Shown here: in pieces, positions 26,329-36,668 of the stretch
Layout: every line of letters starts with the position of its first letter
How positions within the stretch are numbered: the first letter of the stretch is position 1
NCBI GenBank assembly: GCA_011390365.1
Contig: JAABSM010000035.1
Coordinates: forward strand, 1-36,668
Length of the DNA: 36,668 bases
From: Gammaproteobacteria bacterium
GTDB taxonomy: Bacteria; Pseudomonadota; Gammaproteobacteria; Chromatiales; Chromatiaceae
Direction: 5' to 3'
Notes under the pieces: generated by a model
What the model saw: only the letters and a program-made list of their open reading frames with translations
What the model was told of the DNA's origin: nothing
Database searches by the model: none
Made by a program: the position numbers and the translations under genes

Positions 26329-29300
26329 ATGCCTGATCACTCCCATAATCCCGAACGATGGACGCATCTCGCGTCGGCGCACCCTAAGGGTGCGGAGCAG
26401 GAAAAGAATCTCATGTCACGGCTGATCTCTTTGTCCCCCTTCTCGTTGTTGTCTCGGCTTTCCAACCAGTACAACCAACGCTTGGCACTATTGCCGGTCG
26501 CCCTGGTCACCTGGCTGCTACTGGCCCTGCTGCCCATGCCTGGGGCAACGATCGCCCATGCCGCAACCCTTTATGTGGATCAGAACGCCACCGGTGCCAA
26601 CAACGGAGCGAGCTGGGCCGATGCCTATACCGATTTGCAGAACGCCCTAGGCATCGCCGCTGGCGGCGACCAGGTCCGAGTGGCGACCGGTGTTTACACG
26701 CCCGGCGCAGCCCGCGGTGACAGCTTCAATATACCGCCTGGCGTTACCCTCTACGGCGGTTTCCCCACCGGTGGCGGTAGCCTGGACAGGCGCGACTGGC
26801 AAGCCCATGCCACTGTCCTCAGTGGCGATATCGACAATAACGACACCACCGACGTCAATGGCATCGTCACCGACTCGAGCCATATCAACGGCGCGAACGC
26901 CTACCATGTGGTGATGATGGACGGGACCGGCGGGACCAATATCACCGCCAGCACGCGGCTGGACGGCTTCACCATTACCGGCGGGCAGGCCAATGGGGGC
27001 GCCTCCCCCGACGATCAGGGCGGTGGCCTGTACTGCAACGGTTCGGGCGGCGGTAGTGAATGCAGCCCCACGCTGGTCAACCTGACCTTCAGCGGCAATA
27101 TGGCCAGCAACAGCGGCGGGGCGATTTACAATGACGGCAGCCGTGGGTCGGGCAGCTTGGATCCTGGTTTCAGCAGCCCGACGCTGACCAATGTCACATT
27201 CAAAGGCAACACGGCCGCGGATGGTGGCGCGATCTACAATTGGGGCCAATATGGCTTCAGCTCTCCGATCCTGGTCGATGTGACCTTCCTCGGAAACTCG
27301 GCTTCGAATGGTGGTGGTGCGATCTACAACTACGGTGTTTTGGGCAGAGCGAGTCCCACCCTGGCCGACGTAATATTCATCGGTAACACTGCCGGCGGCA
27401 AAGGCGGGGCGATGCACAACAACGGCCATGATGGTCGAAGCAGCCCCGCGTTGACCAATGCCCTGTTCTACAACAACAGTGCCGGCTACGGAGGCGGGGC
27501 GATTTACAATGACGGCAGCCGTGAGTCGGGCAGCTGGGATCCTGGTTCCAGCAGCCCGACGCTGACCAACGTGACCTTCAGCGGCAACACCTCCGGGTTG
27601 GGCGGGGCAATATTTAACGTTGGTGATTTTCAGGAACCCACGGCAAGCAGCCCGACGCTGACCAACGTCGTTCTCTGGGGCAACACAGCGACAAACGGCG
27701 GCGCGCAAATATACGACAGCTATGCAGCGCCATGGGTCGATTTCAGCGTGGTGCAAGGCGGGTGTTCGTTTGGTGTTGTGTCGAGCGGCGCCTGTGGGGC
27801 CAACGTCCTGACCGACGATCCCCTGTTTGTCGATGCGACGACTGGCGACTTGCGTCTCCAATCCGGCAGCCCGGCCATCGATGTTGGCTACAACGCCATC
27901 CTCGCCGGCGTAGCGACCGATCTGAACGGGCTGGTGCGCGTGCAAAATGGCACTGTGGACATGGGCGCTTACGAAACGCCTCTCACCAGTTGTCCAGCAG
28001 GAGGCGTCGTGTACGTGGATCGGGACGCCATCCAACCGGCCGACGGTGCCTCTTGGGCCACCGCCTATCGCTCGCTGCAAGACGCTTTTGTAGTGGAGGA
28101 GGCTTGCGATGTCTGGGTGGCGGCTGGCGTTTACACCCCGGGGACGGCCCGCAGCGATACCTTCAACGTTCCGCCATGGCTGTCTTTGTACGGCGGTTTT
28201 GCCGGTGACGAAACGACGCTGGCCGAGCGGGACTGGACGGCCGACCGCACCGTGCTCAGCGGCGATATCGACCGCAACGATACCACCGACGCCCAAGGCG
28301 TCGTCATCGGCACGGCCCACATCCACGGCGCGAACGCCTACCATGTGGTGACCCTGGACGGAACCGGCGGGACCCCGATCACCGCCAGCACCCGCCTTGA
28401 CGGTTTCACCATTACCGGCGGGCAGGCCAATGGCGCCGCCTCCCCTGACGATCGCGGCGGCGGCCTGTTCTGCAACGGTTCGGACAGCGGGAGTGAATGC
28501 AGCCCCACGCTGACCAATCTGACCTTCAGCGGCAACACGGCAACCTACGGCGGGGCGCTGTTCAATGAAGGGGGAAACAACGGGCTCAGCAGCCCGACGC
28601 TGACCGAGGTCGCATTCCGGAACAATAGTGCCGCCACCCATGGGGGAGCGATCTACAACGCCGGGGGGTATGGCGGCGACAGCAGCCCCTCACTAACCCA
28701 GGTTACGTTCAGCGGCAATGCGGCCGCCTCCGACGGCGGGGCGTTGTTCTGCTACGGCGGGGATGCGGGGCAATGCAATCCGACGTTGACCAGCGTCATC
28801 TTCAGCGACAACACCGCCAATCTTGGCGGGGCGATGTACAACGATGGATCCAACACCGGCGACAGCAGCCCAACGCTTGTCAATGCCGTGTTCCGGAGCA
28901 ACACGGCGCAAAAGGCGGGGGCGATGTTCAACCATGGCATGGGAGGCACCAGCAACCCGACGCTGACCAACGTCACCTTCTGGGGCAACACGACGGCCGA
29001 TGAGGGTGCCGTACTGTATAACTCGGGTCTCAATGGCGTCAGTAATCCCCTGTTAACCAATGTCATTCTGTGGGGCAACGTAGCCAACGGAGCAACCGGT
29101 ACGCAGATTTTGGACGAATTTGCGACGACCACCGTCAATCACAGCCTGGTGCAGGGCGGCTGGATCGGCAACGGAACCGGTAACATCAGCACGGACCCCC
29201 GGTTTTTCGATGCAGCCAATGGCGACCTGCGGCTTGGATCCGGGAGCCCGGCCATCGATGCGGGAAATAACACCGCGGTGCCTGCCGGGGTCACCTCCGA

Positions 29301-36668: not shown

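Follow-up and report, generated by a model that had tools for sequence, protein, structure and literature searches.

What kind of protein is encoded by a reading frame that stays open for more than 10 kb and then runs off the end of its contig? In this study, we followed up such a frame on the forward strand of contig JAABSM010000035.1 of a gammaproteobacterium of the family Chromatiaceae (assembly GCA_011390365.1). The window, that is, the whole stretch of 36,668 nucleotides analysed here, is one complete contig (C98) of a 169-contig, 4.26-Mb genome with a completeness rating of 98.02%. The frame reads as eight modules, each combining polymorphic membrane protein (PMP) coils with choice-of-anchor Q caps. 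In our judgement it is probably the first half of a gene whose product, an exported string of beta-helix beads, would reach about 7,000 amino acids or more and likely serve as a long, many-valued adhesin or matrix fibre.

The giant frame starts at ATG 26329, behind a Shine-Dalgarno-like AAAGGAG at 26313-26319 (a further in-frame ATG lies at 26143), and meets no stop before the window ends, while none of the other five frames stays open for more than 680 codons. Its N-terminus is a probable Sec signal, to judge from a hydrophobic segment (Table 1). Within the C98 modules F..N occurs 39 times and GGA[ILMV] 29 times, whereas 1,000 shuffles average 7.7 (maximum 17) and 1.8 (maximum 7), respectively, which rules out a chance origin of the motif content. 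Consistent with this, the C98 half matches Pfam Chlam_PMP at 215.1 bits (expectation value (E) 3.9e-67), NCBIfam POMP_repeat at 165.3 bits (E 4.1e-50) and, over seven stretches, NCBIfam choice_anch_Q (NF041518) at 169.4 bits against a cut-off of 25 (E 1.3e-50). Two other Pfam families over their cut-offs, DUF5123 on the modules (85.4 and 42.6 bits) and YdgH_BhsA-like on the C9 half introduced below (28.8 bits), we read as cross-matches to a beta-helix. The original prediction, made from the letters of the window, had described a frame open for more than 10 kb, eight modules of PMP-type repeats packaged between anchor-Q ends, conserved Cys and a signal peptide. All of these features were recovered, the last as a hydrophobic N-terminal segment, and the PMP and choice-of-anchor Q profiles, whose silence it had named as grounds for abandoning it, both matched strongly.

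The modules, m1 to m8, were delimited at 26563-36666, m8 being incomplete. They follow one plan: an N-cap, three to eight PMP-type coils of about 30 amino acids each, and a choice-of-anchor-Q C-cap. Every module starts with a sequence resembling VVYVDQxATGxxxGASWADAYTDLQxAL and the complete ones end with one resembling SPAIDAGDN...DLGAYE, the invariant columns being mainly Gly, Asn, Pro, aromatic and Asp cap residues. A GDxxxxDxxD loop is also conserved. The predicted fold is a right-handed parallel beta-helix, in line with the solved structural neighbours, the best of which (VIA-align) include the BT_1002 glycoside hydrolase, PL6 and Pel9A lyases and tailspike depolymerases. When neighbouring modules m3 and m4 were modelled together by AlphaFold (predicted local distance difference test (pLDDT) 87.7), they formed two separately capped helices connected by a low-confidence linker. 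Because of these separate caps, a single continuous long helix is ruled out, and the protein is, as first proposed, a concatemer of whole beta-helix domains. Among the sequences of solved structures, a single module used as query found no relative up to E 10; our A1 profile found one, over the PMP coils (PDB 7w5z chain U2, E 4.6e-5), a 3,634-amino-acid 'Transmembrane protein, putative' that is presumably from a ciliate.

Table 1. Features of the window, with the giant frame and its parts first and the neighbouring genes last
Feature	Position	Strand	Remark
Giant open reading frame, 5' half of gene	26329..36668	+	stop-free to contig end; 3,446 codons
Probable Sec signal region MSRLIS...LLPMPGATIAHA	26413..26562	+	hydropathy peak 2.37, frame residues 52-70
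Module m1, 480 amino acids	26563..28002	+	8 PMP coils (simple pattern)
Module m2, 473 amino acids	28003..29421	+	
Module m3, 383 amino acids	29422..30570	+	first half of AlphaFold pair model
Module m4, 383 amino acids	30571..31719	+	second half of AlphaFold pair model
Module m5, 434 amino acids	31720..33021	+	
Module m6, 415 amino acids	33022..34266	+	
Module m7, 449 amino acids	34267..35613	+	
Module m8, 351 amino acids	35614..36666	+	C-cap end lost at contig edge
Last 99 bases of the window	36570..36668	+	identical to C9:1498-1596; contig edge inside near-identical repeat
Upstream giant Ig-like/DUF11/GEVED protein, 2,865 amino acids	16104..24701	+	last ~600 amino acids 43% identical to C-terminus of C9 half
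Companion gene	24658..25890	+	weak NHL/ScyD-like matches; hydrophobic C-terminal tail; IPTL-CTERM 13.3 bits against cut-off 20.5

Where does the gene end? Not at position 36668, as the extent first given to it might suggest, for the frame has no stop there and another contig, C9, very probably carries the remainder. The organism's own genome gave 12 PMP matches at E 0.001, on C98 and C9 only, and a search with module 1 gave 20 matches, on C98, on C9 and in a single-module gene on C44. On C9 (L009; 12,231 bases) a frame is open from base 2 to a stop at 10,217-10,219 and encodes 3,405 amino acids. It carries five modules, the first one cut (choice_anch_Q 95.7 bits, 5 stretches), followed by Flg_new_2, Big_13, Big_12, LTD, Calx-beta, Big_3_5 and DUF11, all over their Pfam cut-offs, and by a 3-coathanger domain (NF045639, 27.0 bits against a cut-off of 26); by eye, it ends in a propeller-like region. 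Four observations make it very likely that C9 holds the other half of the giant gene, by a join that is inferred, not sequenced. The genome has one giant N-terminus and one C-terminus, with no further contig end bearing modules; the window's last 99 bases recur on C9; in both module trees m7 and m8 stand nearest to the C9 modules; and identity rises towards C9. The tree of N-caps makes m8 the sister of the first complete module of C9 (support 99/90); the full-length tree unites m7 and m8 (87/86) and places the pair as sister to the C9 modules (80/85). Rows L009_2_m1 to L009_2_m4 of these trees are modules C9_m2 to C9_m5. Over N-cap residues 70-168, base identity of m7 and m8 is 82-88% to the C9 modules versus 67-78% to m1-m6.

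Several points weigh against this join. SoxB and UvrA, which flank the giant on the C98 and C9 sides, respectively, lie about 780 kb apart in one relative (G065) and 350 kb apart in another (G004); synteny, which we tried as proof, therefore lends it no support, the flanks not being neighbours in relatives. The identity gradient is clear in one segment only and is weaker over the first 70 residues (m7, 70-75% to C9 and 59-74% to m1-m6). The trees also disagree on m8, placed beside the first complete C9 module in one and beside m7 (87/86) in the other, and several of their inner branches are weak. C98 and C9 might instead be halves of two different giant genes, the window protein then being smaller or ending otherwise, in keeping with flanks that are not adjacent in relatives and with the fact that no bridging read was seen between the contigs. 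Set against a genome rated 98% complete that has a single N-terminus, a single C-terminus and modules at the end of no other contig, the nearness of m7 and m8 to the C9 modules in both trees and the 99-nucleotide edge common to both contigs, such a pair of genes appears improbable. Were C98 and C9 joined without extra modules, about 64 amino acids of m8 and 172 of the first C9 module would, by arithmetic, be missing, and the joined protein would count 13 modules or more and run to about 7,100 amino acids. The proposed extension to a stop codon has thus succeeded in so far as a stop was found on C9, and depends on the join for its bearing on the window.

How did so long a chain arise? Of 189 N-cap matches, 13 were left out as too short; in the tree of the remaining 176 regions the 12 own modules fall into a single clade (100/87) with no intruders, and the C44 module lies outside. 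The tree therefore shows a lineage-specific expansion, in which the array grew in this lineage by module duplication. In both trees m2 and m6 are sisters, with support of 100/97 for the N-caps and 70/90 at full length, which hints at duplication of a block. Across 78 of 78 module pairs the ratio of non-synonymous to synonymous substitution rates (dN/dS) has a median of 0.313, and dS exceeds 1 in some of them; the comparison of codons thus shows modules under purifying selection, in line with a protein that selection maintains. Arrays in Spirosoma (L092, 100/88) and in a metagenome-assembled genome (MAG) of Anaerolineales (L048, 94/86) also form clades of their own, so that concatenation of modules very likely arose more than once. 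In the N-cap tree the modules of Alkaliflexus and Natronoflexus are interspersed with each other and with those of a Bacteroidales MAG, which suggests an array inherited in common.

Related sequences are scarce nearby. Counting the organism's own, 9 of 56 genomes of relatives have any match at E 0.001; the strongest elsewhere is a 1,234-amino-acid open reading frame (ORF) of G003 (E 8.4e-35) with one N-cap and one C-cap. A 2,740-amino-acid ORF of the same family (G013) was considered as a comparable chain and ruled out: modules match it weakly in two places (E 1.1e-10 and 6.1e-7), and of the caps it matches the C-cap once and the N-cap not at all. Across the class, five genomes out of 369, again including its own, reach E 1e-20, and each of the four besides its own does so with a single match; as up to four candidates per genome were scored, these counts are lower bounds. 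Farther afield we fetched 79 loci from the best 80 of at least 563 candidates, many of their ORFs being partial. One or two N-caps are present in 67 of the 87 foreign ORFs and four or more in ten (nine from Bacteroidota, one from Anaerolineales), the gammaproteobacterial ones having at most two. The complete ORFs of Alkaliflexus (4,352 amino acids) and Natronoflexus (4,516 amino acids) carry 10 N-caps each; a Membranihabitans ORF of 5,192 amino acids, open at its end, carries 8, as do L080 and L095 from Bacteroidota. Since Bacteroidota ORFs reach 10, the eight modules of the C98 half are no record by themselves. If joined, however, the gene's chain of at least 13 beads would be the longest among the ORFs counted, and in the other sampled genomes of its class no comparable string was seen.

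To picture what such a protein would do, we propose the following. The giant would be exported by Sec through its hydrophobic N-terminus and undergo oxidative folding in the periplasm, where each module (370-480 amino acids) would fold alone into a capped right-handed parallel beta-helix. Such beads would be closed by an N-terminal cap helix and the anchor-Q C-cap, probably stapled by two or more short disulfides, and joined by flexible linkers; after them would come a stalk of Ig-like and DUF11 domains, the 3-coathanger domain and the C-terminus that looks propeller-like by eye. Some route would take the chain across the outer membrane; type II secretion is a guess, and surface retention of cargo of that system is described in PMC13393428. 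Because PMP coils would present variable loops on one face of each bead, the string would most likely bind polysaccharide or another surface repeatedly, as a many-valued adhesin or matrix fibre; many-valued loop binding by PMP-type coils has been proposed for chlamydial polymorphic membrane proteins (Pmps; PMC10715098). Its array would grow by duplication both of whole modules and of single coils of about 30 amino acids inside them.

Certain considerations tell against this picture. The surface adhesin or matrix role, with its putative ligand and location, is inferred, as are export, adhesion and disulfides. The solved beta-helix neighbours are mostly enzymes, so that non-catalytic binding is a proposal. 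Among its Pfam and NCBIfam matches the giant has no recognised outer-membrane export or anchoring family and no T9SS (type IX secretion system), RTX or CTERM family; a search for an autotransporter barrel or a T9SS-like or type I secretion signal had been suggested at the outset, and the matches include no barrel. No C-terminal anchor or sorting family appears in the C9 half at E 0.01 in either database, a result that depends on the join and from which short tails can escape in a long protein. As the name choice-of-anchor implies, a C-terminal anchor or sorting signal follows the domain, outside the profile. The C-terminal ~330 amino acids match no Pfam propeller family up to E 5, and a single-sequence AlphaFold model of the last 375 amino acids of the window neighbour, the 2,865-amino-acid protein, gave a pLDDT of 36.6 and a predicted template modelling score (pTM) of 0.24; the term propeller-like consequently rests on repeat motifs seen by eye, which we take to be those of PD40/TolB proteins.

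The same enzyme-rich neighbourhood could be read differently, with each bead a lyase or hydrolase and the chain a many-headed enzyme acting on polysaccharides. BT_1002, the PL6 and Pel9A lyases and the tailspike depolymerases would suit this, as would a beta-helix giant with a PL6 domain described in PMC12057145; we nonetheless hold it unlikely, given that Pfam shows no lyase or glycosidase family at E 0.01, that the invariant columns are mainly cap residues and that a common fold alone shows no function. A little less likely again is a structural sheath or S-layer-like coat that binds no ligand, to which the repetitive beads and a DUF11/3-coathanger C-terminus common to other large proteins of the genome would lend themselves; module length and coil number vary freely, and so do not suggest a fixed lattice. 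Descent by transfer from a chlamydial-type Pmp autotransporter seems to us very improbable. It could claim the Chlam_PMP and POMP_repeat matches and a match, partial and far below cut-off, to YfaL/EhaC, an autotransporter of the E. coli type (52.3 bits against 1459, best over ~95 residues of repeat), consistent with PF02415 likewise passing its cut-off in the E. coli control genome. Pfam matches up to E 0.01, however, include neither the PMP middle domain nor an autotransporter barrel in C98 or C9, an outcome that holds only if C9 is the C-terminus; for want of both, we ruled out a chlamydial-type Pmp, and membership of that family in the strict sense is not supported. PMP motifs, moreover, occur in print outside Chlamydia, in unrelated proteins of other groups (PMC10715098).

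We thus return to the multi-bead fibre, and to its setting. Upstream of the giant lie SoxB (880.8 bits) and SoxA (243.6 bits), both over cut-off, which bears out the sox-bearing context of the original prediction, and then, towards the giant, the 2,865-amino-acid Ig/DUF11/GEVED protein and the companion gene. The former contains an exact 1,321-bp direct repeat (window 19925-21245 and 21629-22949), which is either a duplication of very recent date or a loop in the assembly. Just after the giant's stop on C9 (10286-10783) stands a shortened companion relative (52% over 60 amino acids), which lacks a match to the companion's middle part, so that a unit of giant and companion may have been duplicated. 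Elsewhere in the genome, exosortase H (TIGR04177, 193.8 bits, cut-off 86) and the XrtH-associated membrane protein (191.4 bits) lie in overlapping frames on C32 (L147, 1141-2717). IPTL-CTERM was found in four other places, two over cut-off and none on C98 or C9, and is not among the NCBIfam matches of the giant. The 3-coathanger domain occurs in nine places, seven over cut-off. A further giant frame (L046 on C151; 3,748 amino acids open) is 32% identical to the window neighbour over the latter's 3-coathanger and propeller-like C-terminus. In a 1,198-amino-acid protein on C44 (L040, 4611-8207), a single module of the giant's family is combined with what looks, by eye, like a subtilisin-like protease domain.

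What these findings mean is that the PMP coil can be set apart from the Pmp autotransporter, as the unit from which a portable, self-capped bead is built, such beads having been strung together in evolution. The C-terminal region (DUF11, 3-coathanger, propeller-like), common to more than one giant of the genome, is a candidate export or display unit. Going further, and only tentatively, since we give the idea low confidence, the giant may be a surface fibre that lengthens itself through two repeats, one nested in the other and each varying independently: beads of about 380 amino acids or more would multiply towards the 3' side and 30-amino-acid coils would be gained or lost inside them, so that one gene tunes both reach and loop display. 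Gammaproteobacteria, Chloroflexota and Bacteroidota might have reached this solution separately, with export keyed to the shared 3-coathanger/propeller-like C-terminus and not to a known anchor.

How does the giant compare with known systems? With chlamydial Pmps, which are predicted to be beta-helices with loops on one face (PMC10715098), it has in common the FxxN and GGA[I/L/V] motifs and coils of about 30 amino acids. Whereas those proteins combine one long repeat helix with a middle region and an autotransporter barrel, the giant is made of short separate helices and neither domain was found. BAP-type adhesins of Acinetobacter are likewise giant, modular and polymorphic and are tied to adhesion in PMC4647330, but their modules are Ig-like and of 80-110 amino acids, whereas the giant's are whole beta-helices. 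A large bacterial protein with tandem beta-helix domains has already been described (PMC12057145). In the open-licence PMC literature we recognised, by title or start of abstract, no paper on tandem anchor-Q modules, and do not claim their absence from print. Rhombotarget A (PDB 9cdu, 9cdv) has no sequence match to the giant's modules; we take it to come from Acinetobacter and to be sorted by GlyGly-CTERM, and know of no tandem arrangement of it. Choice-of-anchor Q proteins share the NF041518 domain, matched by seven stretches of C98 and five of C9, and their C-terminal tails differ, some being T9SS-like and some IPTL-CTERM-like by eye; unlike them, the giant has at least 13 copies, if joined, and no recognised C-terminal anchor. 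Like the Bacteroidota concatemers (Alkaliflexus, Natronoflexus, Membranihabitans, L080, L095), it strings whole anchor-Q modules in tandem, but their modules fall outside its clade, which argues that its array arose separately, and several of theirs end T9SS-like by eye. The anchor-Q domain itself is a named family; what is unusual here is that the bead string is so long, that it is scarce in the sampled Gammaproteobacteria and that its repeats are nested at two levels.
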